Source: Granulicella sp. | GTDB taxonomy: Bacteria; Acidobacteriota; Terriglobia; Terriglobales; Acidobacteriaceae | Assembly: GCA_027450185.1 (NCBI GenBank) | Contig: DAIDKF010000005.1 | Span: forward strand, 62,304 to 126,303 | DNA: 64,000 nucleotides | Direction of reading: 5' to 3' | Shown here: in pieces, positions 18,234 to 32,011 of the stretch | How positions within the stretch are numbered: the first letter of the stretch is position 1 | Layout: each line of letters opens with the position of its first letter | The notes under the pieces: model-generated | Told to the model about the DNA's origin: nothing | Databases searched by the model: none | What the model saw: the letters and a program-made list of their open reading frames with translations, nothing else | Translations under genes and position numbers: made by a program

Positions 18234-20387
18234 TTAGTCTTCTGCGTCGTCGGGGGCGGGGCGGTGTGCGCCAGCGGTGATCTTTTCGGTAAGGGCGGAG
18301 GGGACGAAGTCGTAGTGGTCCATCTCCATGCGGTAGCTGCCCTGGCCGTGGGTCATGGAGGTTAAGGTAGTGCCGTAGGTGAGCATCTCTGCGAGGGGAA
18401 CCTGCGCGCTGACGATAGCTCGGCGGCCCTGGGTGTCCATGCCCTGGACGCGGCCGCGGCGGCTGTTGAGGTCGCCGACGACCGCTCCGGCGGTGTCATC
18501 GGGGATGTCGATCTCTACGCGCATGATGGGTTCGAGGAGCGCGGGCTTCGCGGTTTCCATGCAGGCGCGGAAGGCGAGCCGGCCGGCGATCTTGAAGGCC
18601 ATTTCGCTGGAGTCGACGTCGTGATAGCTGCCGTCCTGGACGGTGGCGCGGAAGTCCACCATGGGGTAGCCGGCGAGGTGGCCGCGGACGGCGGTTTCGA
18701 GGATGCCCTTCTCGATGGCGGGGACGAACTGGCGGGGGATGGCGCCGCCGAAGATGTCGTTGACGAACTCGAAGCCGGTGCCGCGGGGGAGAGGCTCAAG
18801 GCGAATCTTGCAGTCGCCGAACTGGCCGTGTCCTCCGCTTTGCTTCTTGTGGCGGCCGTGGCCGGAGGCGGCGGCGCGGATGGTCTCGCGGTAGGGGACC
18901 TTGGGGGATTTGAGCGTGACTTCGGTGTGGTAGCGGCGGCGGAGCCTGGAGACGACGGACTCGATGTGGAGCTGGCCGGCGCCGGCGAGGAGGAAGTCGT
19001 TGGTCTGGGGGTCGCGGTAGAAGCGAAGGAGGAGATCCTCTTCCATGAGCTTGTGGAGGGCGGGGGCGAGCTTGTCTTCGTCGGCGCGGGATTTGGGCTC
19101 GATGGCGTAGGTCATGGCAGGCTCCGGGGTGGGGAGCGGGTCGATGCGGAGGTCCTGGCCGCGCGCGCCGAGGGTGTCTCCGGTTTGGGTGACGCGGAGC
19201 TTGGCGACGACGCCGAGATCGCCGGAGTGAAGCTCGGGGACCTCGACGAGCTTGCGGCCCTGCATGATGCCGATGTGCGTCAGGCGCTCGGTTTCGGAGC
19301 GGGCGTAGTTTTCGAGCGAGGCGTCGTTGCGGATGCAGCCGCTGATGACCTTGAAGAAGGAGATGCGGCCGGCGAAGGGGTCGACGAGAGTTTTGTAGAC
19401 GTAGATGGTCGGGGGTTCGGCGTCGGTGATGGGGCGGAGGACGCTGTCGTCAGCGGTGGTGGCGGCAACCCCACTGCCGTTGCCGTTGCCGCTGGATTTG
19501 GAGGGGCGAAGTGGGCTGTGGGCGGCGACGGGCGGGCGCTCGTGCGGGGAGGGAATGTAGTCCTTGATGAAGTCGAGGAGGTGGTCGGTGCCGACGTTGC
19601 CGAGGCTGTTGGTGTAGAGGACGGGGAAGATCTTGTCTTCGCGGATGGCGTCGTGGATGGCCTGGATGAGATGGGGGAGGGGGATGGTGCCGACGTTGAA
19701 GTACTCCTCCATGAGCTCGTCCTTGCCTTCGGCGACGAGTTCGACGAGGGCCTCGTGCGCGGCCTTGGCTTCGGCTTCGAGGGAAGCGGGGATGGGGCCG
19801 CGGGTGCCGGTGCCGTCGCCGTGCGGGGTGTAGAGGAAGGCCTCCATGGTGACAAGGTCGATGACGCCGTGGAAGCCGTTGGCGTCGATGATGGGGAGTT
19901 GGACGGGGATGACCTGGCGGCCCCAGCGGTCGCGCATGGCTTCGATCATTTCGAGCCGGCCGGCGGCGGAGTCGGCCTTGGGATGGTCGGCCTGATTGAT
20001 GACGAGGATGCGGGGGAGGTTGAGTTCGGCGGCGAAGTTCCAGACGGTCTGGGTGACGGATTCGATGCCGGCCTGGGCATTGATGAGGACGACGGCGGCT
20101 TCGGCGGGGAGCATGGCGGCGCGGGCTTCGTGGACGAACATGTGGAAGCCGGGAGTGTCGATGAAGTTGATCTTGATGCCGCTCCACTCGGCGAAGGCGA
20201 CGGCGTTGGACATGGTGATGCCACGGGCGATCTCTTCTTCGTCGTAGGCGGTGACGGGGGAGCCGTTGTCGGTGACGGCGGGCATCTTTGCGGTGCTGAG
20301 CATCGCCGAGATGAGGGAGGTTTTGCCGCTGTGCGAGTGGCCAAGGATGGCAATGTTGCGAAGTTCGGTGTTCGCGTAGGTCTTCAT
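18234..20387 (-). CDS. Elongation factor G-like GTPase (EF-G paralogue)
   Basis: 717-residue translational GTPase with EF-G domain order, most like EF-G paralogues of unknown role. P-loop is GHSHSGKTS at residues 16-24 instead of the canonical AHIDAGKTT. G3 is DTPGFHMF, so the His after DTPG that helps GTP hydrolysis is Phe. G4 is NQAD rather than NKxD. A Ser/Gly/Asn-rich linker (near residues 290-315) joins the G domain to domain II. Domains III-V look intact (GAGQLHIESVVSRL, GHGQFGDCKIRL, GRRAIVSAQVP). CAGGAG lies seven bases before ATG. It is probably not the housekeeping EF-G. Confidence 0.9.
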   Translation of the reverse strand: MKTYANTELRNIAILGHSHSGKTSLISAMLSTAKMPAVTDNGSPVTAYDEEEIARGITMSNAVAFAEWSGIKINFIDTPGFHMFVHEARAAMLPAEAAVVLINAQAGIESVTQTVWNFAAELNLPRILVINQADHPKADSAAGRLEMIEAMRDRWGRQVIPVQLPIIDANGFHGVIDLVTMEAFLYTPHGDGTGTRGPIPASLEAEAKAAHEALVELVAEGKDELMEEYFNVGTIPLPHLIQAIHDAIREDKIFPVLYTNSLGNVGTDHLLDFIKDYIPSPHERPPVAAHSPLRPSKSSGNGNGSGVAATTADDSVLRPITDAEPPTIYVYKTLVDPFAGRISFFKVISGCIRNDASLENYARSETERLTHIGIMQGRKLVEVPELHSGDLGVVAKLRVTQTGDTLGARGQDLRIDPLPTPEPAMTYAIEPKSRADEDKLAPALHKLMEEDLLLRFYRDPQTNDFLLAGAGQLHIESVVSRLRRRYHTEVTLKSPKVPYRETIRAAASGHGRHKKQSGGHGQFGDCKIRLEPLPRGTGFEFVNDIFGGAIPRQFVPAIEKGILETAVRGHLAGYPMVDFRATVQDGSYHDVDSSEMAFKIAGRLAFRACMETAKPALLEPIMRVEIDIPDDTAGAVVGDLNSRRGRVQGMDTQGRRAIVSAQVPLAEMLTYGTTLTSMTHGQGSYRMEMDHYDFVPSALTEKITAGAHRPAPDDAED

Positions 20388-20571: not shown

Positions 20572-22254
20572 CTATTTCCCGTCCTGGGCGGTCTTCCAGG
20601 TGCGATAGGAGCCGGTAAGGTTGCGGACGCGGAAACCGTGCTGGAGGAGAATCCTGGAGGTGAAGTAGGAACGCTGGCCGGACTGGCAGTAGGCGATGAT
20701 CTCGCGGTCGCGTGGAAGTTCGTGCAGGCGCGAACGGATCTGGTCGAGGGGAATGTGCGTGGAGCCGGGGATGAAACCCTTGGCGCGCTCGTCGGGGCGG
20801 CGGACGTCGAGGAGGAAGGTCAGCGCGGGGTCGAGGGCGGCGATCTCGCTCCACTGCGCAAGCTGCACATCGCCGTGCAAGACGTCCTGCGCGATCATGC
20901 CGGCCATGTTGACCGGGTCCTTGGCCGAGCCGAAGGGCGGGGCGTAGGCGAGTTCCAGCTCGGCAATATCGTCCATGGTTCTGCCTGCCTGGAGCGCGGT
21001 GGCGAGGACGTCGATGCGTTTGTCGATGCCGTCCTGGCCGACGGCCTGGGCTCCGAGTAGTTTGCCGGTCTCGGGCGCGAAGAGGATCTTCATGGCGATA
21101 AGCTGCGCGCCGGGATAATAGCCGGCGTGCGAGCCGGGATGCAGGTAGACGGTTTGGAAGGGGATGCCAGCCTTGCGGAGCGATTTTTCGTTGGCCCCGG
21201 TGCAGCCGGCGGAGAGTGTGAAGAGGCGCAGGATCGCGGTGCCCCAGGTGCCGTCGTACCGGGAGGAGCGGCCGCAGATGTTGTCGGCGGCGATGCGGCC
21301 CTGGCGGTTGGCGGGGCCGGCGAGCGGGATGTGGCTCCATGCACCGGTGACGGCGTCCTTGACTTCGATGGCGTCGCCGACGGCCCAGATGTGGGGGTCG
21401 CTGGTCTGCATGTGGTCGCTGACGCGGATGCCACCGAGGGAGCCGAGTTCGAGGCCCGCACTCTTCGCAAGCAGGGTCTCGGGACGGACGCCGAGGCCGA
21501 GGATTACGAGGTCGGCCTCGACGCGCTTGCCGCTCTTGAGGACGACGACGGAGGCGCGCGCCGTTTCGCCGGATGTGGGGGCTTCAAAGGCTGCGACGGG
21601 GTCGTTGAGGTGGAGATCGATGCCGTTGGCAGCCAACTCTAGATGCAGCCATGCGGCCATCTCAGGATCGAGCGGGGTCATGACCTGGGGCATGGCCTCA
21701 AGCAAGGTGACGGAGAGGCCGCGCTGCTTGAGTTGCTCGGCCATCTCGAGGCCGATGTAGCCGCCACCGACGACGACGGCGCGGCACTCTTCGCAGTCGT
21801 TGAGCCAGGTTGCGATGTACTCGATGTCGGGAATGTTGCGGACACTGAAGTGGCCGGTGCGTTCGATGCCGGGAATGGGCGGACGCAGCGGCGAGGCTCC
21901 GGGCGAGAGGACGAGCGCGTCATAGGACAGGTCGTACTCGCGGCCGGTGGTTACTTCGCGGACTGTGATGAGCTGCGCTTTGGCGTCGATGGAGAGGACT
22001 TCGGAGTTGACGCGGACGTCGAGATTGAACTGCGCGCGAAGCGTTGCGGGGGTTTGCAGCAGCAGGGCGTTGCGCTGGATGATTTCGCCGCCGATGAAGT
22101 AGGGCAGGCCACAGTTGGCGAAGGAGACGTAGGGCCCGCGCTCCAGAACGATGATCTCGCAGTCTTCGCAGAGACGCCGGGCGCGAGTGGCCGCACCTGC
22201 TCCTCCGGCGACTCCACCTACGATGACGATGCGCTTAGGTTTAGTAGTGTTCAT
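20572..22254 (-). CDS. CoA-disulfide reductase with C-terminal rhodanese domain
   Basis: FAD flavoprotein of the CoA-disulfide/NADH-polysulfide reductase type fused to rhodanese, 560 residues. The first FAD site is IVIVGGVAGGAGAATRARR. The redox Cys is in SFANCGLPYFIGG near residue 43. The NAD site is VVVGGGYIGLEMAEQL near 157, and the second FAD motif is IWAVGDAIEV. Rhodanese covers about residues 450-555 with catalytic Cys in AYCQSGQRSYFTS. Such fusions reduce persulfides or polysulfides with NADH. Start ATG 22254 is favoured by conserved length; GTG 22269 is possible. It lies 180 bases after the DsrE-like gene, at the end of the sulfur cluster. Confidence 0.93.
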   Translation of the reverse strand: MNTTKPKRIVIVGGVAGGAGAATRARRLCEDCEIIVLERGPYVSFANCGLPYFIGGEIIQRNALLLQTPATLRAQFNLDVRVNSEVLSIDAKAQLITVREVTTGREYDLSYDALVLSPGASPLRPPIPGIERTGHFSVRNIPDIEYIATWLNDCEECRAVVVGGGYIGLEMAEQLKQRGLSVTLLEAMPQVMTPLDPEMAAWLHLELAANGIDLHLNDPVAAFEAPTSGETARASVVVLKSGKRVEADLVILGLGVRPETLLAKSAGLELGSLGGIRVSDHMQTSDPHIWAVGDAIEVKDAVTGAWSHIPLAGPANRQGRIAADNICGRSSRYDGTWGTAILRLFTLSAGCTGANEKSLRKAGIPFQTVYLHPGSHAGYYPGAQLIAMKILFAPETGKLLGAQAVGQDGIDKRIDVLATALQAGRTMDDIAELELAYAPPFGSAKDPVNMAGMIAQDVLHGDVQLAQWSEIAALDPALTFLLDVRRPDERAKGFIPGSTHIPLDQIRSRLHELPRDREIIAYCQSGQRSYFTSRILLQHGFRVRNLTGSYRTWKTAQDGK

Positions 22255-22434
22255 AAGACCTCTACCCACTCTTTCTTACAAACCGTATCAAAGATTCGGA
22301 GGATTGTTTGTGATGGATGGGCCTGGTGGACGAAGATCGAAGGCCTGATTCGCAGACGCAAGCAAGCGTGCCAGCGGCAGGCGGATATGCTGGCGCATCC
22401 GCGCAGTGCTGGCACAGAGAAAGCGAGGCCCGCC

Positions 22435-23022
22435 TTAGAGGAAGAATGCCTGCTTGGATTCGCCGATGAGTTGGATGAAGGTGCCGGCTCCGACGTAATC
22501 AAGATGCGGGTAGTCGATCATCTCCTCGGCTTTGAAGCCCATGAGGTCCATCGACATCTCGCAGATGTGGATCTCGACGCCGTACTCGCCGGCCTCTTTC
22601 ATAAGCTGTTCGAGGGACTTGACGCCGTGCTGCTTCATGATGGTGCGGATCATCCTGGGGCCGATGCCGGCCATCTGCATCTTGGAGAGGGGAAGGGCCT
22701 GGGAGCCGCGCGGCAGCATCCAGCCGAACATCTTTTCCATGAACTTTTTGGGTGGGGCCTTCTTGGGATCGCGCAGCGCGGCTACTGCCCAGAAGGTGAA
22801 GAACAGGTCGACCTTGATGTCATAGGCAGTTGCGGCCAGAGCGATGATGAAGGCGGCGATGGTGGTGTCGAGATTTCCGGTCATCACACCGATGGAGAGA
22901 TGGTCGTTGCCAGCGGTTTGCTCGATGGCCTCGACGCGGGCCGTGAGTGCTTCGAGGGCGTCTTTGAAGTTGGCTTGGTTGAGGTTGACCTGGGTGAGAT
23001 CGACTGCGGTGGCGACAGACAT
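22435..23022 (-). CDS. DsrE/DsrF/DrsH-like sulfur carrier protein
   Basis: 195-residue protein of the DsrE2-like family, predicted to bind and pass on sulfane sulfur. Hydrophobic segment TTIAAFIIALAATAYDIKVDLFFTF near residues 53-77 and Pro/Lys-rich loop KKAPPKKFMEKMFGWM are typical. A conserved Cys sits in EIHICEMSMDLMGF near residue 152. The N-terminal ~35 residues look like a short coiled coil. AAAGGAG lies nine bases before ATG. Only 27 bases after the QmoC-like gene, so it is likely co-transcribed. Confidence 0.88.
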   Translation of the reverse strand: MSVATAVDLTQVNLNQANFKDALEALTARVEAIEQTAGNDHLSIGVMTGNLDTTIAAFIIALAATAYDIKVDLFFTFWAVAALRDPKKAPPKKFMEKMFGWMLPRGSQALPLSKMQMAGIGPRMIRTIMKQHGVKSLEQLMKEAGEYGVEIHICEMSMDLMGFKAEEMIDYPHLDYVGAGTFIQLIGESKQAFFL

Positions 23023-23049
23023 GACGTGCGCTCCTTTGCGGATATGAGG

Positions 23050-24261
23050 TTAGGCGTTGCTGGCGGCAGCCATGGCTTTTTCCGGCGCCGGGGCCAGCGC
23101 CCACTCGTGCAGGGCGAGGGCGAGGGTCCGGTAGACGACGTGCGCGAATTTGGTGAGAGGCATCAGGATGAGGATGTCCATGGCCAGCACGATGTGCGTG
23201 AGGAAGGTCACGTAGCCGAAGAGGGTCGGGTGCGGGAGGTAGACGACGATCTCTGTGATGAGGCCGGTGAGGACGGTGCCGGTGAGCAAAAGGAGGAAGA
23301 ACCAGTCGGAGAAAGAGCTCTTGTCGTAGGGCGTTTCCTTGCCGCTGATCCTGCGCGAGATGGCGATGGTGAGGCCGTAGAGACAGACCAGGCCGCCGAC
23401 CAGTCCGAGCAGACGCATGGAGTACCAGGGAGGAACGGGCGAGCCGATGGGCTTGAAGAGATAGTCCACAGTGGTGGCGATGAGCATGGCGATGAAGCCC
23501 CACATGATGCTGGCGTGGACGAACCATGCACGGAGATGGAGTGGCTCGCCGCTGGGTTGCCCGGTCGCGTCGCAGTTGCGGAAGCGGCGATGATTGAGCG
23601 CGTCCGTGACGGCGGTCACGATGGAGGGAATCAGAGCGGAGAGAGGGAAGGCTGGGCGCTCACCGGATGGACTCTTCCTGCTCATGACTTTGTAGATCAT
23701 GGAGAAGACGCCGAAGGCCAGGCTGGCGCCGATTACGATGAAGAGAGCAACGCCGATGCCGTGGACCCACTCGCCGGGAATGAATTGGAAGAGACGGGTG
23801 GAGCCGACGCCGCTGAAGAGCGCGCCGTTGCTGCCCATTTCAAGTCCACCCTTGTGCGAGAGCAGAAGGAGAACGAAGAATGCGGAGAGCAGAAGGAAGA
23901 CCAGGATGTTGACGGTCACGGAGCGGTACATGAGGCCGGACAATCCGGTGGCGTCGTAACGGGAGATGGCGTAGCTGCGCGCCGCTGCCATGAACTGCAT
24001 GGGATCAGCTTCGCGGGGGCAGGTCTTGGTGCATTCGCCGCAGGCGTAGCAGCGCCAGATGTCCTCATCGGCGAGCAGTTCCTTCTCCATGCCGACCTGC
24101 GCCATGCGGATGACGCGGCGGGGAAAGCCGGAGGAGTCCTCTGCCAGCGGGCAGACAGCGGTGCAGTTTCCGCAGTTGAAGCAGGCACTCACATCCAGCG
24201 TGCCGCCAGGGCCGTGCTTCTTGATCTTATCCATCAATGCAACATCGATTGCGTGTGCCAT
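23050..24261 (-). CDS. QmoC-like membrane subunit (4Fe-4S plus cytochrome-b-like)
   Basis: 403-residue fusion of a HdrC-type ferredoxin domain with a membrane domain like HdrE/NarI. Two [4Fe-4S] motifs are visible: CFNCGNCTAVCPLAED near residue 28 and CYACGECTKTCPREADP near 72. At least five membrane helices follow, with His residues in the helices (for example RAWFVHASIMWG and FLTHIVLAMD) that could bind haem b. This is the architecture of QmoC, which passes electrons to or from quinone. GAGGG sits six bases before ATG 24261; ATG 24267 directly abuts it. Follows the small helix-turn-helix gene by 20 bases. Confidence 0.9.
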   Translation of the reverse strand: MAHAIDVALMDKIKKHGPGGTLDVSACFNCGNCTAVCPLAEDSSGFPRRVIRMAQVGMEKELLADEDIWRCYACGECTKTCPREADPMQFMAAARSYAISRYDATGLSGLMYRSVTVNILVFLLLSAFFVLLLLSHKGGLEMGSNGALFSGVGSTRLFQFIPGEWVHGIGVALFIVIGASLAFGVFSMIYKVMSRKSPSGERPAFPLSALIPSIVTAVTDALNHRRFRNCDATGQPSGEPLHLRAWFVHASIMWGFIAMLIATTVDYLFKPIGSPVPPWYSMRLLGLVGGLVCLYGLTIAISRRISGKETPYDKSSFSDWFFLLLLTGTVLTGLITEIVVYLPHPTLFGYVTFLTHIVLAMDILILMPLTKFAHVVYRTLALALHEWALAPAPEKAMAAASNA

Positions 24262-24281
24262 TGCCATCCCTCGTACTTCGT

Positions 24282-24599
24282 TTAGTGACTTGTTGCGGCC
24301 GCCTGATCGCTGACGACGAGCGCGTAGAGGAGGTAATCGCCCTCTTCGCCAGCTTCGATGATCTGCCCGTATTTGCGCATGCCGGTGAGGTGCCAGAGGG
24401 CCTCGTCACTGGGCATGTTGAGCGCTGCTGCGATGTCGGGAGCTGTGGCGGGCTTCTCGGCGAGCATCTGGATGATCGCCTTGCGTGCAGCCTTCAACTG
24501 CTTGGCGTGCTGTTTTTTTTCTTCGCTGATACCGCCGATGCGTTCGCGCATGGTGGTGAGAGCCTGTTTTTGCTGGGCGGTGAGTGTCTTCATTGCCAT
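24282..24599 (-). CDS. Small winged-helix-like protein in Hdr/Qmo cluster
   Basis: 105-residue cytoplasmic protein. The N-terminal ~40 residues form a charged helix (TAQQKQALTTMRERI then EEKKQHAKQLKAARK). A winged-helix-like part follows (KPATAPDIAAALNMPSDEALWHLTGMRKYGQIIEAG). AAAGGAG lies nine bases before ATG. Embedded between HdrA-like and QmoC-like genes with gaps of 29 and 20 bases. It could be a local regulator or a structural partner of the complex; sequence does not decide. Confidence 0.8.
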   Translation of the reverse strand: MAMKTLTAQQKQALTTMRERIGGISEEKKQHAKQLKAARKAIIQMLAEKPATAPDIAAALNMPSDEALWHLTGMRKYGQIIEAGEEGDYLLYALVVSDQAAATSH

Positions 24600-24628
24600 T
24601 TTCGATCTCTCCTTTCAAGGGCCCCGGG

Positions 24629-26647
24629 TCAGCCCAGGTGCACCAGTTCGGGTACAGCGCATTGGGCGCTGGGGGGTTCGGAGACGAGGCCGTCCACCAT
24701 CGCGTTGTACTGGTCAAGGCGCCAGCCATCGACGTCAAGGGCGTGGGTGGGACAGACGGGGACGCAGGCGCCGCAGCCGGAACAAAGCCCGGCGTTGACC
24801 TCGGCGCGCTGCATCTTGCGTCCATCGACTTCAACCTCAACCATCTTGAGGGCGCCTTCGTAGTCGCATTGCGTGACGCAGATCGCTTCGCCGGTGCAAC
24901 GTGAAGCGTCGACGACGGCGACGAAGGGATTCAGTTCGACGACATCCTTGGCAAACATGGAGGCGGCTTTGACGGCTGCGGCTCCGGCGGCGTTGAGCGT
25001 CTCCTGAATGTTCATGGGGCCCTGCGCCGTGCCTGCGAGGAGAACGCCGTTGACGGCGACTTCGACCGGACGCAGCTTGGGATGAACCTCCTGCAGGAAG
25101 TGGTCTTCGCCGGTGGAGAGCTTGATGCTCTCGACCAGATCCTCGATGTGGCTGGGCATCATGCCGACGCCGAGAACGACCATGTCGACCGGGACTTCCA
25201 GCTCTTCGCCCCAGGTGAGTGCGTCCTTGACGGTGACGGTCAGTGGCGCCGACTTCTTGCCGTTGGGCCTGGTGCTGCGCTCGACCTTGATGGGGTCTTC
25301 GCCGTTGAAGCGGAAGAAGACGACGCCAGCCTTGGAGGCGTTGATGTAGTAGTCCTCTTCGCCGCGGCCGTAGGTGCGGATGTCGCGATGGAAGTCGTAG
25401 ACGCGGACTTTGGGGAAGCGTTCGCGGACGGCCAGGGCCTGCTGAAGAATGGTGCTGCAGCAGACGCGCGAGCAGTAGGTGTTCAGGGTTCCGTCGGGTT
25501 GCGGCTCGTGGACGCCGTCGAGTTGGCGGCTGCCGACGCAGTGCAGAAACGCGATGCTGCGGATGGTGCGGCCGTGATAGACCATGTCCCGGGCGTGGGC
25601 ATCGATGCTTTGGGAAAACTGGATGAACTCCGGCGTGGTGAGGACGCATGGGTCCTGGCGATAGAGGAACTCGCCGTCGCGCGGAACGTAGGGACGGTAG
25701 CCGGTGGCCATGACAATGGCGCCGACTAGCTGGTCGGTGGTTGCGGTTGCGCCCGCGGGTCCGAAGGGGCCGGTGATCACGGTGCGGAAGTTTCCAATGA
25801 AGCCGCTGACGGAGGTGACGTTGCTGTTGAGCAGGACTTCGATGTTCTTGTGGCTGTTCACCTTCTGAACCAGCTCGTGGACGAAGTCGCTGGCCATCTT
25901 CTCGGAGGGATAGACGCGGCCGCGCTCGTTGAGACGGCCACCGAGGCGATCGGACTTTTCAACGAGCATGACGAGGATGCCGCGCCCCGCCATGTCGACG
26001 GCTGCCTTCATGCCGCCAATGCCGCCGCCGATTACGAGAGCTTTGCGATGGTTGGGGAGCTTGATCTGGTCGAGCGGAGTGGAGTAGCGCAGCTTGCCCA
26101 CGGCGGCGGAGATCATCTGGATGGCCAGTTGCGTGGCGCCTTCGTGATCGTGCTTATGCGCCCAGGAGCCCTGCTCGCGGATGTTCACCTGCTCGTAGAG
26201 ATAGGGGTTGAGGTTGGCGCGGGAGACTGCGCCACGGAAGGTCTGCTCATGCAGCGAGGGCGAGCACGAGGCGACGACGACGCGATCCAGATTCTGCTCG
26301 AGGATGTCGGAGGTGATGGTCTGCTGGCCGGGGTCGGAACAGCAGAAGGTGTTGACCTTGGCGGTGACGACGCCGGGGATGAGACCGACGACTTCGGCTA
26401 CATGCTCGACGTCGACGACGTCTGAGATGTTGCCGCCGCAGCGGCAGATGTAGACGCCGACGCGCACTTCAGGAGGCAGGTCGGAGCGCTTCTGCTGGAC
26501 CCGCTCGAGGTGTTGCTGCACGGCTGCACGCTGCTTCATGTAGTTGGGGTCCGCTTCGAGCAGCGCCTCTTCCTCTTCAGGACTCGCGCATGCGAGATCG
26601 AGGTCTTCTGTGCCCGGCTGCCTGGTGGAACCATTGGTGTCGCTCAT
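24629..26647 (-). CDS. HdrA-like FAD/iron-sulfur protein (QmoB-like)
   Basis: 672-residue heterodisulfide-reductase subunit A-like flavoprotein. The N-terminal region has YICRCGGNISDVVDV near residue 68 and FCCSDPGQ. FAD site VIGGGIGGMKAAVDMAGRG is near 210, and the Cys-rich YCSRVCCSTILQQ near 400. The C-terminus should hold two [4Fe-4S] sites: LCSGCGACVPVCPTHAL is complete, but the preceding RCTGEAICVTQC lacks the second Cys (CTGE instead of CxxC). QmoB normally carries a fused MvhD domain; here MvhD is a separate gene. GAGGA lies nine bases before ATG 26647; upstream in-frame sequence overlaps the preceding gene. Confidence 0.92.
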   Translation of the reverse strand: MSDTNGSTRQPGTEDLDLACASPEEEEALLEADPNYMKQRAAVQQHLERVQQKRSDLPPEVRVGVYICRCGGNISDVVDVEHVAEVVGLIPGVVTAKVNTFCCSDPGQQTITSDILEQNLDRVVVASCSPSLHEQTFRGAVSRANLNPYLYEQVNIREQGSWAHKHDHEGATQLAIQMISAAVGKLRYSTPLDQIKLPNHRKALVIGGGIGGMKAAVDMAGRGILVMLVEKSDRLGGRLNERGRVYPSEKMASDFVHELVQKVNSHKNIEVLLNSNVTSVSGFIGNFRTVITGPFGPAGATATTDQLVGAIVMATGYRPYVPRDGEFLYRQDPCVLTTPEFIQFSQSIDAHARDMVYHGRTIRSIAFLHCVGSRQLDGVHEPQPDGTLNTYCSRVCCSTILQQALAVRERFPKVRVYDFHRDIRTYGRGEEDYYINASKAGVVFFRFNGEDPIKVERSTRPNGKKSAPLTVTVKDALTWGEELEVPVDMVVLGVGMMPSHIEDLVESIKLSTGEDHFLQEVHPKLRPVEVAVNGVLLAGTAQGPMNIQETLNAAGAAAVKAASMFAKDVVELNPFVAVVDASRCTGEAICVTQCDYEGALKMVEVEVDGRKMQRAEVNAGLCSGCGACVPVCPTHALDVDGWRLDQYNAMVDGLVSEPPSAQCAVPELVHLG

Positions 26648-26706
26648 ACTATTTGTCCTCGAAGTTCTACTTCTGTCCGTTGTCCCTATTCCCTGTTCCA
26701 TGTTCC

Positions 26707-28050
26707 TTATCCGACCAGGACGGCTGTCTGCGATTCGCTTACGTTGGCGGACCGTTTCTGGTAGAGGTACTGGCTGACCTGCATGGCGGCTGCGCCCGCC
26801 TCGGCGATCGTGTCGACGATGTCCTTGGGTCCGGCTGCGACGCCGGCGACGAAGATGCCCTGCGCGGTGGTAAGAGTTGGCGAGGTGAGCATGGGGGTGG
26901 CGACAAAGCCGTCGGAGGAACGCTGCACGGGCGTGGTCCCGGACATGTCCCAATCGGGCAGCATGCCCTGGGCGAGCACGACGAGATCGTGACGATGCTC
27001 CTGCAGGAAGTTCTCCGGGTCTTCGGTGGTCTCGACGTGCAGGGAGAGGTCGCCATCATCGACGGGATCGATGCGCGCTACCTTGCCGCGCACGAAGTTG
27101 ACGCCCATGGCCTTGGCGTTCTGGTAGAACTGCTCGTAGCCTTTGCCGAAGGCGCGGATGTCCATGTAGTAGATGGTGATGTCAGCGATGGGCAGGGCGC
27201 CGGAGAGCAGCATGGCCTGCTTGATGGCGTACATGCAGCAGACGCGCGAGCAGTAGGAGACGCCGATGGATGCGTCGCGGGAGCCTGCGCACTGCACGAA
27301 GGCGACGGAGGATGGAATTTTGCCGTCGGAGGGACGGAGTACGCGGCCATAGGGGCCGTGCGGCGCCAACAGACGCTCCATGGTGAGCGCGGAGATGATG
27401 TTCTTGCTGCGCGCTGCGTTGTACTGCGGCTTGACGTTGAGCGAGTTGAGCGCGAAGCCTGATGCCACCACGACGGCGTCGGTCTGGACGATCACGGTCT
27501 CGGCCTGCTGGTCGAACTCGATGGCGTCGGTGGGGCAGACGCGGGCGCAGGTTCCGCAGGTGGCGCAGAGTTCGGGGTCGAGCACGGCCTTCTGCGGGAT
27601 GGCATTGGTGAAGGCCACGCCAATGGCGCGCTTTGCGCCGAGACCCTCTTCGAGAGGGTCGGGATATTCGGCATCGCAGGCGTACTCGCAGAGACGGCAG
27701 CCGATGCACTTGTCGAAGTTGACGTAGGTTGCCTTCTTGAGCAACTTCACGTGATGTACGCCGTTGAGGGTCTGGATGCCCTGCACTTCGGTGTTGACGA
27801 GGATCTTGATGTTGTCGTGGTGCGAGGACGCGGACATCTTTGGCGCGGTGATGCAACTGGCGCAGTCCAGCGTGGGGAAGACTTTGGCGAGAGCGATCAT
27901 GTGGCCGCCGATGCTGGGGCCACGCTCGACGAGCATCACCTTCAATCCCTGATCGGCGAGGTCGAGGGCCGACTGCATGCCGGCAATCCCTCCTCCAACG
28001 ACCAGAGCGTCGGGGCGATAGGCGTTGCTTTGTTCCGTGGTCGGTGTCAT
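26707..28050 (-). CDS. HdrA-like FAD/iron-sulfur protein (QmoA-like)
   Basis: 447-residue flavoprotein close in size to QmoA. FAD site ALVVGGGIAGMQSALDLADQG is near residues 15-35, then FPTLDCASCITAPKM. Two complete [4Fe-4S] motifs follow: KCIGCRLCEYACDAEYPDP near 118 and LCATCGTCARVCPTDAIEF near 165. YCSRVCCMYAIKQA is near 275. A second nucleotide-binding stretch (GIFVAGVAAGPKDIVDT) closes the FAD domain. The start ATG overlaps the MvhD-like stop (ATGA), so the two are translationally coupled. It lies 59 bases before the second HdrA-like gene. Likely an electron-transfer or bifurcation subunit of a cytoplasmic complex at the membrane. Confidence 0.93.
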   Translation of the reverse strand: MTPTTEQSNAYRPDALVVGGGIAGMQSALDLADQGLKVMLVERGPSIGGHMIALAKVFPTLDCASCITAPKMSASSHHDNIKILVNTEVQGIQTLNGVHHVKLLKKATYVNFDKCIGCRLCEYACDAEYPDPLEEGLGAKRAIGVAFTNAIPQKAVLDPELCATCGTCARVCPTDAIEFDQQAETVIVQTDAVVVASGFALNSLNVKPQYNAARSKNIISALTMERLLAPHGPYGRVLRPSDGKIPSSVAFVQCAGSRDASIGVSYCSRVCCMYAIKQAMLLSGALPIADITIYYMDIRAFGKGYEQFYQNAKAMGVNFVRGKVARIDPVDDGDLSLHVETTEDPENFLQEHRHDLVVLAQGMLPDWDMSGTTPVQRSSDGFVATPMLTSPTLTTAQGIFVAGVAAGPKDIVDTIAEAGAAAMQVSQYLYQKRSANVSESQTAVLVG

Positions 28051-28553
28051 AGCGAGACCCTTTCTGACATGGAGTTGCAGCCCAGCAGCGCGGGGTTGAC
28101 GGAGGTTTGCAGGCGCTGCAACGATTCCTGATAGAGCTTGCCGGCCAGCGCGCGGTTCACAGGGCCGAGACGGACAAGGTTGTCGGTCATCTGCGCGATC
28201 TCCTTGAGGAAGGCCTTGATGCAGACTGTGCAGATTGCTGTCAGGCGGATACGCTCGACGTTCAGGCCGCCATCCTTCATGACGGTGGTCAGCGTGTCGA
28301 TGCGCGCGGCGAGACGGTCGTAGGCGCCGTGATAGGGGCAGTCCGAACCGCAGGCGGCGATGATGATGCCGTCGATGCCCTTGCTGTAAGTGCGCAGATA
28401 GAAGTCTTCGGGGAAGAGCACCGGAGAGAGCACGCGCAAAATGTAGACGCTGGAGGGATATTCCAGGTGGGCCTTGCCTACCGCGTCGGCACCGGGATAG
28501 GCACACTTTTCAGTGGCCAGCACAAGTATCTTAGGAACGAAAGCATCAGCCAT
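28047..28553 (-). CDS. MvhD/FlpD-like hydrogenase iron-sulfur subunit
   Basis: 168-residue protein of the MvhD family, a [2Fe-2S] adapter that hands electrons to HdrA. Cysteines occur in the expected places: EKCAYPGAD, IIAACGSDCPYHGAY, and LTAICTVCIKAF. AGAGGT lies seven bases before ATG 28553, which rules out the upstream in-frame start at 28574. Overlaps the HdrA-like start by four bases. In QmoB this domain is fused to HdrA; here it is free-standing and encoded upstream. TusA lies 106 bases upstream. Confidence 0.92.
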   Translation of the reverse strand: MADAFVPKILVLATEKCAYPGADAVGKAHLEYPSSVYILRVLSPVLFPEDFYLRTYSKGIDGIIIAACGSDCPYHGAYDRLAARIDTLTTVMKDGGLNVERIRLTAICTVCIKAFLKEIAQMTDNLVRLGPVNRALAGKLYQESLQRLQTSVNPALLGCNSMSERVSL

Positions 28554-28659
28554 ACCACACCTCTTGGCGACCACGGGCTCCTGCTCGTGGTCTTGGACTT
28601 TGCGAAGCGCTATAGGGGCCGGCTGGATGGAATGGATCCATGCCGAGCCCCATAGGTAA

Positions 28660-28914
28660 TTACTTCTTTCTCAGGACAAACAGGCGGTCGTGGCCGTCGG
28701 CTTCGATCAGGCCGAGATATTCATGCCCTACCTTGGTTGCCCATGTGGATAGATCCTTGCGGGAACCTTTGTCGTTGGATTTGACTTCGATGACCTGCCC
28801 TACCTTGACGGCGCCAATGCCCTTCTTGGCTTCCAGCAGTGGGCCGGGGCAGGCTGTGCCACGGGCATCGATGACTTTGTCGGCGGTTAGAGTAGCAAGA
28901 TCTTCAGTGGTCAT
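28660..28914 (-). CDS. tusA: TusA-family sulfur carrier
   Basis: 84-residue sulfurtransferase carrier. The signature DARGTACPGPLLEAKKGI places the persulfide Cys at residue 22 in the CPGP motif, followed by KVGQVIEVKSND and a final DRLFVLRKK. TusA relatives pass sulfane sulfur between rhodanese, DsrE and Hdr/Dsr complexes, all of which have candidates in this cluster. Twelve bases downstream of the ArsR gene, so co-transcribed with it. The symbol denotes family, not the E. coli tRNA-thiolation role. Confidence 0.95.
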   Translation of the reverse strand: MTTEDLATLTADKVIDARGTACPGPLLEAKKGIGAVKVGQVIEVKSNDKGSRKDLSTWATKVGHEYLGLIEADGHDRLFVLRKK

Positions 28915-28926
28915 AAACGTCTCCTT

Positions 28927-29346
28927 CTAGTGGGTTGTGGGCTGGTGGATGTTTTCAATTGAACGAGCTTCAACTGGCTGATCTGCTGCAGGCAGCGCTT
29001 GCGTGCATACTGCGAAACGGCTGCACTCGGTGACTTTGTTGTGGTCATCAAGCGCCTCCCGAATCAGATTGGCGGCCTGATAAAAGCGTTGATCGGCGAT
29101 GGCGTAGGAGACGGTCTGTCCCTGTCTCTCGGAGATGACAGCCCCACGGTCTCGCATCAGGCGCAGATGCTGCGAGGCGTTGGAGACCGAGATCTCAGCT
29201 TCTTCGGCGATCCGGGTCACGCTTCTGGGGCCGTTCTGGAGAGCGCAAAAGATGCGCACCCGCGTGGAGTGAGCGAGGATCATGAAGAAGTCGCCCATGC
29301 GTATGCAGTCCAGATGGCGATCCTGATACATGTTGTTCGTTGACAT
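28927..29346 (-). CDS. ArsR-family transcriptional regulator, candidate persulfide sensor
   Basis: 139-residue winged helix-turn-helix protein. The HTH is SVTRIAEEAEISVSNASQHLRLMRDRG (about residues 42-68), and the wing is AVISERQGQTVSYAIAD. Cysteines at 14, 34, 108 and 114 place one near the N-terminal helices and a pair in the last helix. That is roughly where SqrR/BigR persulfide sensors carry their two reactive cysteines; alignment is needed. A strong Shine-Dalgarno (GGAGG) precedes ATG. First gene of the leftward sulfur cluster, downstream of an AT-rich control region, so probably autoregulatory. Confidence 0.92.
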   Translation of the reverse strand: MSTNNMYQDRHLDCIRMGDFFMILAHSTRVRIFCALQNGPRSVTRIAEEAEISVSNASQHLRLMRDRGAVISERQGQTVSYAIADQRFYQAANLIREALDDHNKVTECSRFAVCTQALPAADQPVEARSIENIHQPTTH

Positions 29347-29598: not shown

Positions 29599-30924
29599 TT
29601 AGAAGTAATAACCTATCTGGATGCCGATGGAGTTCTCGGACATGGAGGCCTGCAAAGGAGCTATGGGCATGCCGAAGAGCGTGCCATCGGTGCTGGTGGC
29701 TTTGAAGGTGTGCATGGCGGCTTCGGTTAGACTCCAGCGCATGGGTAGTTTTTGTGTGGCTCCGATGGTTATGGCAGTGGTGACGATGGCAGGCATGATC
29801 AGGTTGGCTTGCAGGTCCTGAGTGCGGATCGGATTGGCTCCGTAAGCGAAGCCTGCGCGAACCTGCCAGGAATTGTTGATGTCATATTGCGTGCCCAGAT
29901 TAGCCACCCACTGATTCTGCCAGTTGAGGGGAAGGGCAACAGCGTTGGTCCCTACCCAGGGGCCGAAGACCTTGAACTGACTCATGGTGCTATGCCAGTT
30001 AATCCATTGCCCTTCGGTGCTCACCAACCATTTGGATACGGGGTGAAAGGCGACGCCGAAGGATACTTGCTGGGGATAATTGAGGCGCGCCTGATAGGTC
30101 CCCTGCCCACCTGAGACGCCGACCGGTCCAGCCTCGCCAACGCCTGTGGGAACAAACTCTTCGTTCTCCTGCCAGAACAAGTGGGTGAATTTCATTGCGG
30201 ACTTATAGGAGGCGCCGAAGTCCACCCTATGGTTGTACTTGTATAGGAAGCCAATAGTGGCGCCTATGCCGTAGGCCCAGGAAGGGCTGGTGAGATTGAA
30301 GCCCTGGCCGCCAAAGGTTTCGTCAAAGGAGACCTGCTCGGCAGCGACATCGAGGGCAAGGCCGACGCTGAGTTTATCCGTCATCTTGAAGGCTATGGCC
30401 GGGGCCATTTGCATGAAGTCGATGCTGCTGAAGGCCTGGATGGTTCCCATCGGCGTGTTGGGTTGCAGGTAATTGACGCCAAGGCCGGAGGTGCCATAGA
30501 TGCCGCCACCGAAGTAGAGGTCGGGGCGGAAGGCCGGAGCCGACCAGCCGAGTGCGGGGATGGCATATACGTTGGTGTGGCTGCCGGTGTCGCCAAAGCC
30601 AAAGTTGGTGCGCCGTTCGGGGTTGAAGATCTCGCCGGAGAACGCGGTTTGCGATGGGAGCCAGGCGAGGCCGGCGGGATTGCTGATGGCGGTCATCGGG
30701 TCGCAGGGAGCGGCTACGACGGCTCCGCCCATGCCCATGGAGCACTGACCAAAACCAATGAGTTGATAGCCGTTGGTGGCCCAGGAGTTCGCAGTGCAGG
30801 CCAATAGCGCGATGGTAATGAAAATTATCCGGAGGGCTGCGATCCGGGCTTTGTTTGCCGGTACGTCTTCGCAGAAGGGCATCGTTGTTTCGTTCTGTGT
30901 TTGCATGGTGTTTTCGCTCGACAT
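29599..30924 (-). CDS. FadL/OmpP1/TodX-family outer membrane transporter
   Basis: 441-residue predicted outer-membrane beta-barrel for hydrophobic or aromatic compounds. An N-terminal extension of about 30 residues precedes a signal segment (LRIIFITIALLACTANSWA). The mature start TNGYQLIGFGQCSMGMGGAVVAAPCDPMTAISNPAG is the family hallmark (plug domain, NPAG). Alternating aromatic strands continue to a C-terminal IGIQIGYYF, a typical barrel-end signature. It lies 87 bases after the DUF302-like gene, likely one transcript. Substrate unknown; the neighbourhood suggests a sulfur or hydrophobic compound. Confidence 0.9.
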   Translation of the reverse strand: MSSENTMQTQNETTMPFCEDVPANKARIAALRIIFITIALLACTANSWATNGYQLIGFGQCSMGMGGAVVAAPCDPMTAISNPAGLAWLPSQTAFSGEIFNPERRTNFGFGDTGSHTNVYAIPALGWSAPAFRPDLYFGGGIYGTSGLGVNYLQPNTPMGTIQAFSSIDFMQMAPAIAFKMTDKLSVGLALDVAAEQVSFDETFGGQGFNLTSPSWAYGIGATIGFLYKYNHRVDFGASYKSAMKFTHLFWQENEEFVPTGVGEAGPVGVSGGQGTYQARLNYPQQVSFGVAFHPVSKWLVSTEGQWINWHSTMSQFKVFGPWVGTNAVALPLNWQNQWVANLGTQYDINNSWQVRAGFAYGANPIRTQDLQANLIMPAIVTTAITIGATQKLPMRWSLTEAAMHTFKATSTDGTLFGMPIAPLQASMSENSIGIQIGYYF

Positions 30925-31011: not shown

Positions 31012-31962
31012 CTAGTTGGAAGCATCCTTGAGCGCCTTCTGGATGGCGCCGGGAGCACAGTGAATGGTCATGAAACCGTGAGACCCCATCATGCTGAGGT
31101 CCGGGAAGTTGACGGCGATGCGGAACTTGGCCGGCAGGGCATAGACGGTTCCACCGGAGACGAGGATGCCGTAGGGCAGATGCCCTGTGGACTTGACGGG
31201 ATCGGTGTCGATGATGCCCATGATGTGTGCGTCGCCGCCACATTCATTGCCGCCGGCGCCGGAGAGAGCGACGCCAAAGAGCGTCTGCTGCTTGCCGGGG
31301 ATGGCTACTTGATAGACCTTGGCGGTGCCTCCCTTGTGGGCAGCAAGGCCCGCGCTTACCGCATCGATGGCCTTCTGATAGCTGGGATATTGGGCCAGCG
31401 TATCGAGGTCGGTGAAGAACGGCATCATCATTTTGTAGTGGTAGTTCTGCAGGTTGGCGGCAGTGAGGCCGTTCTTCGATCCGTAGGCCGCCTGGGCTCC
31501 CAGAGCCTTGGCCAACTGGGCATCAACGCCCGAGAGGTCGCTCTTCAGGCGGTAGGCATTGGCCATGTAGGAGGGGTTGGTGTAGGCCACCTCGATCTGG
31601 TCGTTGACTTTGGTGATGGTCACGCGCTGCACCACGGCAAAGCCACCGAAGGGGGTCTCGGCGGCAGCCTGCTTAAGGGCTGGATTGGTGACGCCGATGA
31701 CTTCGGCTGAGACCGTCTCGCCGGTGGAGAACTTCAGGTTGGTATAGGGGGCGTAGGTTCCTACAACCTCGAAGCCGTTGCCGGTAAGTTTCTGTTCTAC
31801 CTGAGTTACCACCGGAGCGATCTCTCCGCTTGTAGTGAAGGCCAGCTCAAAAGGTTTGAGGGTATCCGCGGCGAATGCGATCGTCGAAAGAGAGATTAAA
31901 GCAATTACGAGTGAACTTAGCTTGCGACCAATGGTAGAGGTGGTTTTCGTGTAGTTCTGCAT
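31012..31962 (-). CDS. Periplasmic DUF302-like protein
   Basis: 316-residue exported protein with signal peptide (LSSLVIALISLSTIAFA). The N-terminal half resembles DUF302: GFEVVGTYAPY, EVIGVTNPALKQAAAE, VVQRVTITKVNDQIEVAYTNPSYMANAYRL. The C-terminal half has a conserved-looking NECGGDAHIMGIID with one Cys, and ALPAKFRIAVNF, and ends with a second lone Cys in HCAPGA. Biochemical function is unknown. The start is uncertain: GTG 31971 lies three bases after GGAG, while ATG 31962 lies twelve after it. Its upstream region carries a candidate sigma-54 promoter and twin palindromes beside the sigma-54 activator gene. Confidence 0.7.
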   Translation of the reverse strand: MQNYTKTTSTIGRKLSSLVIALISLSTIAFAADTLKPFELAFTTSGEIAPVVTQVEQKLTGNGFEVVGTYAPYTNLKFSTGETVSAEVIGVTNPALKQAAAETPFGGFAVVQRVTITKVNDQIEVAYTNPSYMANAYRLKSDLSGVDAQLAKALGAQAAYGSKNGLTAANLQNYHYKMMMPFFTDLDTLAQYPSYQKAIDAVSAGLAAHKGGTAKVYQVAIPGKQQTLFGVALSGAGGNECGGDAHIMGIIDTDPVKSTGHLPYGILVSGGTVYALPAKFRIAVNFPDLSMMGSHGFMTIHCAPGAIQKALKDASN

Positions 31963-32011
31963 GTCCGGCACTTACTCCCTTTCGTTTCCGCATGGCGCGT
32001 GGACGCAGCAT

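Follow-up and report, generated by a model that had tools for sequence, protein, structure and literature searches.

Which reaction is catalysed by a membrane complex that is laid out like the Qmo complex of sulfate reducers, when its genes are linked to sulfur carriers instead of aprAB? This question is raised by a cluster of nine genes at positions 20572-29346 of a 64,000-nucleotide stretch of a Granulicella sp. genome (GCA_027450185.1, contig DAIDKF010000005.1, positions 62,304 to 126,303), hereafter called the window. A cytoplasmic enzyme step for elemental or sulfane sulfur is a long-standing gap, and annotation of such genes as 'HdrA' or 'QmoC' invites a reading in terms of sulfate reduction, for which QmoC should not be taken as evidence. 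All together, the comparisons reported below suggest that FlpD, HdrA1, HdrA2, a winged-helix protein and QmoC form a membrane complex acting as a TusA-sulfur:menaquinone oxidoreductase, with dedicated DsrE and TusA proteins. Judging from the sequences, we assign this reading a probability of about 0.55.

A preliminary description, made from the letters of the window, had proposed nine collinear genes. Open reading frames and family searches recovered all of them on the minus strand, at coordinates given beforehand. In the direction of transcription, they are:

28927..29346, minus strand: ArsR-family repressor, at the head of the operon (HTH_5, 4.9e-11; NF033788, 70.9 bits, cut-off 55)
28660..28914, minus strand: TusA sulfur carrier with a CPGP motif (PF01206, 2e-18)
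28047..28574, minus strand: FlpD/MvhD-fold protein with C115xxC118 (PF02662, 2.8e-20, 73 bits against a cut-off of 22.3)
26707..28050, minus strand: HdrA1, a short HdrA flavoprotein with an internal ferredoxin domain and a QmoA-like layout (NF040770, 452 bits, below the cut-off of 1100)
24629..26701, minus strand: HdrA2, a long HdrA with an N-terminal HdrA domain and a C-terminal 2x[4Fe-4S] domain (NF040770, 471 bits, below the cut-off of 1100)
24282..24599, minus strand: winged-helix protein of 105 amino acids with an ArsR-like fold (model pLDDT 87)
23050..24267, minus strand: QmoC-like membrane subunit with HdrC-type 2x[4Fe-4S] and four conserved histidines (NF038018, 215.9 bits, cut-off 300)
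22435..23022, minus strand: DsrE2-like sulfurtransferase (PF13686, 5.2e-45; NF047629, 60.5 bits, below the cut-off of 210)
20572..22269, minus strand: CoA-disulfide reductase-rhodanese fusion (TIGR03385, 479 bits, below the cut-off of 578.8; PF00581, 9.4e-17)

The intergenic gaps from ArsR through DsrE range from -4 to 85 bp and are followed by 165 bp ahead of the CoA-disulfide reductase (CoADR) gene; thus, the first eight genes are operon-like. In HdrA2, the Fer4 match lies at residues 600-660 and no FlpD domain is fused to the protein.

Is this arrangement conserved outside the window? A profile search of genome contigs with the QmoC alignment of the genus returned 279 relatives, the best 80 of which were kept, leaving 199 weaker relatives outside the analysis. 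Since the loci were chosen on QmoC similarity alone, the order of their genes played no part in the choice. All 80 loci come from metagenome-assembled genomes (MAGs), which may be the reason why the module has been overlooked so far. They fall into 15 named phyla plus three records without a phylum (NCBI ranks) and cover bacteria and archaea, including Asgard archaea: Acidobacteriota (25 loci), Chloroflexota (16), Bacteroidota (12) and Planctomycetota (6), with Myxococcota, Verrucomicrobiota, Actinomycetota, Thermodesulfobacteriota, Archaeoglobi, Heimdall- and Hodarchaeota among the further taxa. The near named relatives of the locus are labelled Acidobacteria bacterium and Granulicella sp. 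The same gene order, which the preliminary description had proposed to look for in other genomes, was found throughout: TusA-FlpD-HdrA1-HdrA2-QmoC, on one strand and in this order, is present in all 58 loci whose sequence extends 5.6 kb or more upstream of QmoC, so that the order of this core cannot be ascribed to chance. A winged-helix match, fused forms included, accompanies it in 55 of the 58 loci, and a DsrE-family gene was retrieved nearby by filter in 51 of 55; among the four misses, L036 and L045 (here and below, L and G numbers designate loci and genomes) do have one. An apparent HdrA1-HdrA2 fusion in L083 proved, on inspection, to be two overlapping reading frames.

Within the genus, a QmoC orthologue (at least 71% identity) occurs in six of the 27 other genomes, giving seven carriers among 28 genomes with our own. 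Five of the six other loci keep the whole order FadL-ArsR-TusA-FlpD-HdrA1-HdrA2-winged helix-QmoC-DsrE-CoADR. The sixth, L022 (G026:C80, 1362-5521), looks degraded or misassembled: FadL immediately precedes an incomplete HdrA2, QmoC is split in two, the CoADR gene is incomplete as well, and no TusA match was found in the genome.

The carriers of sulfur follow the module closely. The active-site Cys22 of TusA (CPxP) is kept in 70 of 70 module TusA proteins, and the single conserved cysteine of the DsrE2-like protein, Cys154, in 63 of 63. Across the 28 genomes of the genus, TusA was found in six of the seven carriers, the missing one being the truncated G026, and in none of the 21 non-carriers; the DsrE2-like family was found in all seven carriers and, again, in no non-carrier. 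The corresponding Fisher p-values, not corrected for kinship, are 2e-5 for TusA and 8e-7 for the DsrE2-like family. In addition, the module TusA is the sole TusA found in the carriers of the genus, including our own 54%-complete genome. The link to sulfur carriers proposed at the outset is therefore borne out within the genus. The TusA protein of E. coli serves biosynthesis, and this fact would favour a role of the module in tRNA thiolation, molybdopterin synthesis or Fe-S assembly, outside energy metabolism, as would the cysteine-desulfurase cluster gene lying upstream in 8 of 12 Bacteroidota loci. We nevertheless regard such a role as very unlikely, given that neither TusA nor the DsrE2-like protein was found in any of the 21 module-free genomes of the genus, and that every locus (by selection) has a QmoC-type membrane subunit in which the haem-type histidines are kept. 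As for related lineages, the available portion of PMC6018796 reports dsr-bearing peatland Acidobacteria without tusA and dsrE2. In two Chloroflexi 'fen' MAGs, a second cluster of the type DsrE-TusA-DsrE-ArsR was observed near the module (L066:16795-18018 and L063:11209-12453).

Where could TusA-bound sulfur react? All 68 module FlpD proteins compared share an invariant CxxC motif (C115 and C118; another count gave 49 of 49), while the ancestral MvhD cysteines drift, C24 and C75 being kept in 42 of 68 proteins each and C79 in 57 of 68. The equivalent position is not a cysteine in two alignments with solved MvhD proteins, and none of four canonical QmoB tails carries a CxxC at this site. The FlpD model (pLDDT 91) adopts the MvhD fold, with TM-scores of 0.88-0.91 against four MvhD chains (0.89 on the target for 5odh_D). 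Since the modelled CxxC is placed just past the end of a strand, as are C24 and C75, it probably shares a face of the protein with the old Fe-S site. The conservation of the motif, together with a core that has no CCG subunit, leads us to consider it as a candidate thiol site.

The small winged-helix protein named in the preliminary description does have an ArsR-like fold, its nearest folds being HlyU, ZitR, SmtB and CzrA with TM-scores of about 0.5. All 12 Bacteroidota loci, of which two lie on partial contigs, have this domain fused to the C-terminus of HdrA2; on the evidence of this fusion, the protein is most likely a subunit of the enzyme, and a role as regulator was set aside. In QmoC, all eight cluster cysteines are kept in 80 of 80 proteins, as are His251, His358 and His376, with His169 in 78 of 80. 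Four conserved histidines suffice for two haems b, which makes such a pair possible.

These features bring us to the most familiar explanation, namely an ordinary Qmo complex serving adenosine 5'-phosphosulfate (APS) reductase, with aprAB merely missing from the assembly. The layout of two HdrA proteins and QmoC is indeed common to both, as the preliminary description had noted; what did not hold is common descent of the HdrA proteins, nor does FlpD match, being a separate gene with another cysteine motif. In an unrooted HdrA tree of 73 rows, which includes no sHdrA or named type II Qmo sequences and leaves out two canonical QmoA rows (L127, partial, and L128, a 697-amino-acid frame), module HdrA1 and HdrA2 (25 rows each) form their own clades with support of 100/99 and 100/100, respectively. 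Canonical QmoA and QmoB (10 rows each) are sister groups (100/99) without any module row. HdrA1 groups with three methanogen HdrA proteins (98/96), and HdrA2 likewise falls outside canonical Qmo. The approximately unbiased (AU) test rejects a grouping of HdrA1 with canonical QmoA (p 0.0004; the hypothesis was set after a quick tree). Since the HdrA pair descends separately from QmoA and QmoB, HdrA pairs and QmoC seem to have come together on more than one occasion. The QmoC proteins are less clearly divided: in a careful tree of 37 module and 7 canonical rows, from which L127 was dropped as spurious (25 bits, end branch 8.87), the module rows need two changes and come out as a single clade in 7% of bootstrap trees, although the AU test does not reject such a clade (p 0.296). 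The QmoC of the window stands apart from the seven canonical rows, inside a starred group of seven module rows. Among 396 Acidobacteriota genomes, four reach at least 300 bits with the QmoC profile and 39 more match weakly, counts in which canonical and module forms are not separated.

The distribution of aprA and dsrA bears directly on the same explanation. None of the nine genes in the cluster is of AprA type. We considered 44 module genomes, comprising our own, the six of the same genus and 37 picked for spread from the 80 loci. Matches over cut-off were found for aprA in 13, for dsrA in 16 and for neither in 26 of them; a weaker dsrA match of 343 bits is present in G072 and G073. Since the host genome is a MAG of 2.17 Mb with an estimated completeness of 54.4%, absences were tested in near-complete genomes of the same genus. 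Neither aprA nor dsrA reaches its cut-off in the carriers G004 (100% complete) and G008 (97%), nor in the whole of our own genome, where sat was not searched for. More generally, aprA was found in none of the 28 genomes of the genus, 19 of them at least 90% complete (sat, again, was not searched for); the control genomes of this search were all negative, and the same model did detect aprA among the 44 module genomes. Where aprA is present, it mostly has a qmo of its own: the surroundings of aprA were examined in 12 of the 13 aprA genomes, and in 10 of these 12 loci the gene lies no more than 5 kb from a canonical-type qmo that resembles the aprA-linked qmo of G035 more closely than it does the module. 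At the other two loci, aprA is at a contig end and no qmo was found on the examined side (4.7 and 10 kb). An ordinary Qmo complex could still draw on the 13 genomes with aprA, among them G061, and on the archaeal QmoC L102, which groups with canonical QmoC. Weighed against the genus without aprA, the canonical qmo next to aprA and the AU test, it is hardly credible, and we rejected it.

The idea of a distinct module lacking Apr and Dsr thus needs to be divided. Independence is supported, as the module can exist without Apr and Dsr in G004 and G008; exclusivity is not, in view of the 13 and 16 genomes with aprA and dsrA. As to what could have overturned it, no aprA turned up elsewhere in the genus, and the HdrA proteins do not fall inside standard Qmo. 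Two carriers of the genus, G003 and G023, have dsrA, with aprA not found. In G023, dsrA and another gene of Dsr type are followed in a row by a DsrL-like gene and dsrC (L157:439-4328, G023:C120), and the run continues with DsrK-, DsrO- and DsrP-like genes. SoxB was found over cut-off in none of the 44 module genomes, with weak matches in 12. COX1 is present in 33 of the 44 and in all seven carriers of the genus, and was not found in 11; hence, the module is not tied to oxygen.

A second family of explanations starts from the sulfur-oxidising sHdr system. Here, the module would be a variant that turns TusA-bound sulfane sulfur into sulfite, with QmoC in place of the soluble electron acceptor. 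TusA, DsrE and HdrA are common to sHdr loci, according to the text available of PMC6776052, and ArsR-type control is shared as well (available part of PMC12423496). Conversely, a Pfam search of the nine cluster proteins found neither HdrB (CCG) nor a lipoate-binding protein (GCV_H), in agreement with what had been read from the window beforehand. The CCG proteins examined elsewhere in carriers do not fill the place of HdrB: the one in our own genome is LutA-like and stands beside LutB, while those of G008 and G014 are fusions of FAD-oxidase/GlcD type with a DUF3683 domain. CCG frames of about 1,215-1,307 amino acids occur in G008, G014 and G023, with a 317-amino-acid frame in G003; no such frame was found in G004 or in the eight non-carriers examined, and CCG proteins of the genus are also present in genomes without the module. 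Similarly, one GCV_H-type protein is found in six of the seven carriers and two in G008; G004 has one, as have 19 of 21 module-free relatives. For these reasons we did not assign the module to sHdr, and we judge such a variant unlikely.

By comparison, the TusA-sulfur:menaquinone oxidoreductase reading would proceed as follows. Sulfane sulfur would be loaded through the rhodanese or DsrE onto Cys22 of TusA, which would then dock on FlpD, where the CxxC would act as a thiol/disulfide site interconverting TusA persulfide and sulfide. This would be a two-electron reaction, which we prefer since the core encodes no CCG subunit and the reaction would require neither a sirohaem enzyme nor a non-cubane HdrB cluster. 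Electrons could travel via the FAD and [4Fe-4S] clusters of HdrA2 and HdrA1 to the [4Fe-4S] pair of QmoC, and its two putative bis-His haems, whose ligand residues are observed, would hand them to menaquinone. The winged-helix protein would be a structural subunit of the complex, and the flavin pair could permit the reverse direction through confurcation. Two kinds of neighbour are consistent with this scheme as suppliers of sulfane sulfur: a cysteine-desulfurase family gene, identified by clustering upstream in L053 and in 8 of the 12 loci from Bacteroidota (the cluster member in L095 scores 449.5 bits with TIGR01977, cut-off 377), and a YeeE/YedE sulfur transporter near the module in the Anaerolineales locus L056.

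In which direction would such an enzyme run? In this oxidase-bearing acidobacterial lineage, we lean modestly towards oxidation of sulfide or sulfane sulfur, since oxidases are present in all seven carriers of the genus. A respiratory persulfide or polysulfide reductase, overlapping with the reading that we prefer, would instead draw on menaquinol, possibly together with ferredoxin or NAD(P)H through confurcation, to reduce TusA persulfide to sulfide. The two-electron chemistry of a CxxC fits this form too, as do the genomes in which COX1 was not found. Reduction is further favoured by the CoADR-rhodanese neighbour and by an NAD(P)H-domain insert in Bacteroidota. Of the HdrA1 proteins, nine reach 900-939 amino acids, and in L085 (Bacteroidota) the extra part is a GltD/NfnB-like NAD(P)H-binding domain. 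On the other side, COX1-type oxidases accompany the module in the whole set of genus carriers, and menaquinol alone is too weak a reductant. A strictly reductive enzyme therefore appears rather unlikely to us.

Several observations weigh against a TusA-sulfur:menaquinone oxidoreductase, or against its oxidative direction. Two of the four canonical QmoB tails have a single cysteine near the position of the FlpD CxxC, and the motif could be a structural or Fe-S site instead. An extra CCG/DsrK-like protein is encoded in 6 of 12 Bacteroidota loci, as well as in L078 and L102, and in those Bacteroidota loci it could be the catalytic subunit. The separation from Qmo is not clear-cut: G061, with a module QmoC 87% identical to that of the window, also has apr, dsr and canonical qmo, and the Archaeoglobales QmoC L102 joins four canonical QmoC proteins (95/94). 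In G004 and G008, none of Apr, Dsr and SoxB is found over cut-off (the search did not cover sulfite oxidases or persulfide dioxygenases); as no known downstream route for TusA-bound sulfur was found, pure oxidation is awkward in these genomes. The adjacent CoADR-rhodanese, which we take to resemble NAD(P)H-dependent polysulfide reductases, points to reduction, and the 11 carriers in which COX1 was not found imply that some may use the module anaerobically.

The surroundings of the core vary between lineages. The CoADR-rhodanese gene adjoins the module in the genus, and strong matches beyond close relatives are limited to L040, L041, L050 and L098; it is mainly a lineage-specific addition, chiefly at the level of the genus. 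Upstream of the cluster, two further genes lie on the same strand:

29599..30924, minus strand: FadL/TodX outer-membrane transporter, a genus-conserved neighbour (PF03349, 3.3e-28)
31012..31971, minus strand: protein of 319 amino acids, a neighbour in the genus (no Pfam match at 1e-5)

FadL adjoins the module in six of six same-genus loci and is also near it in a planctomycete and an armatimonadote (L046 and L098). The 319-amino-acid neighbour is present in four of the six, one of the two misses stopping at a contig end. A role of the two in sulfur uptake is possible. Downstream, an elongation-factor-G-like gene, read from the sequence at 18234-20387 on the same strand, lies 184 bp past the cluster; among the six same-genus loci it was found in G014 only. 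Of the cysteines in the ArsR protein of the window, Cys14 is kept in 20 and Cys34 in 21 of 56 ArsR rows, and the C-terminal ones in 2 and 6; counted by these positions, a family-wide two-cysteine pattern as in the SqrR/BigR/sHdrR sensors is not apparent. As seen at L085:5205-7949 and L095:961-3578, versions of the module in Bacteroidota can have additions of two kinds, an NfnB/GltD-like insertion within HdrA1 and upstream genes for a small membrane protein, a member of the cysteine-desulfurase family and a CCG protein resembling DsrK/HdrD.

How does the module compare with known systems? In the open-licence literature, we found no description of a TusA-linked HdrA-QmoC module and none pairing FlpD with TusA. 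The order TusA-FlpD-HdrA-HdrA-QmoC is likewise not described in the available portions of PMC12998232, PMC12142623, PMC8528874, PMC8780430, PMC6776052, PMC12423496, PMC4911364 and PMC9448743. The canonical (type I) QmoABC of sulfate reducers also combines two HdrA-type flavoproteins, a QmoC that joins HdrC-type clusters to a membrane domain, and a FlpD module. In canonical Qmo, however, the FlpD/MvhD domain is located at the C-terminus of QmoB, whereas here it is a separate upstream gene with a CxxC; the module further differs in its HdrA descent, its extra winged-helix subunit and its linkage to TusA and DsrE, and its QmoC remains below the NCBIfam qmoC cut-off (215.9 against 300 bits). The closest published concept is type II Qmo, whose role is unclear according to the portion available of Neukirchen, Pereira and Sousa 2023 (PMC10504309), and whose QmoA and QmoB are closer to HdrA than to type I QmoAB. 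The module, whose HdrA1 groups with methanogen HdrA, may overlap with it. The available text of that account mentions no TusA, DsrE, separate FlpD, CxxC or winged-helix subunit, and the named members Vulcanisaeta moutnovskia and Ammonifex degensii lie outside our comparison.

The sHdr system of the Hyphomicrobium type has HdrA, TusA, DsrE and ArsR-type control in common with the module, which differs by lacking HdrB/HdrC pairs and a lipoate-binding protein in the cluster and by having its own membrane subunit of quinone type. The YTD cluster of sulfur disproportionators consists of yedE, tusA, dsrE and two to three hypothetical genes, and, in the accessible part of PMC12998232, is described without HdrA and QmoC. 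Its likeness to the module lies in TusA, a DsrE-family gene and the YeeE/YedE gene near L056; none of the nine genes of the cluster is a yedE (a search that did not extend to the rest of the genome). Finally, the HdrABC-MvhD complex of methanogens has the FlpD-HdrA electron-transfer unit and the FlpD fold in common with the module, whose cluster has neither hydrogenase nor HdrB, and in the two alignments with solved MvhD proteins the CxxC position is not occupied by cysteine.

In conclusion, a core conserved in 15 named phyla, with a diagnostic CxxC, offers a candidate for a further sulfur-quinone enzyme that can be put to the test. That it represents an ancient class of membrane enzymes, spread over bacteria and archaea and seen here in uncultivated genomes alone, coupling TusA persulfide directly to menaquinone via a dithiol FlpD and paired HdrA proteins, is a more tentative proposal, which we rate at slightly less than even odds. 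If true, it would provide a route of sulfur respiration or oxidation that is independent of Dsr, Apr, Sox and sHdr and evolved in parallel with Qmo. As far as the sequences indicate, the electron transfer would be of the known HdrA/Qmo type, while the partner (TusA), the site (the CxxC) and the subunit (the winged helix) appear to be new.

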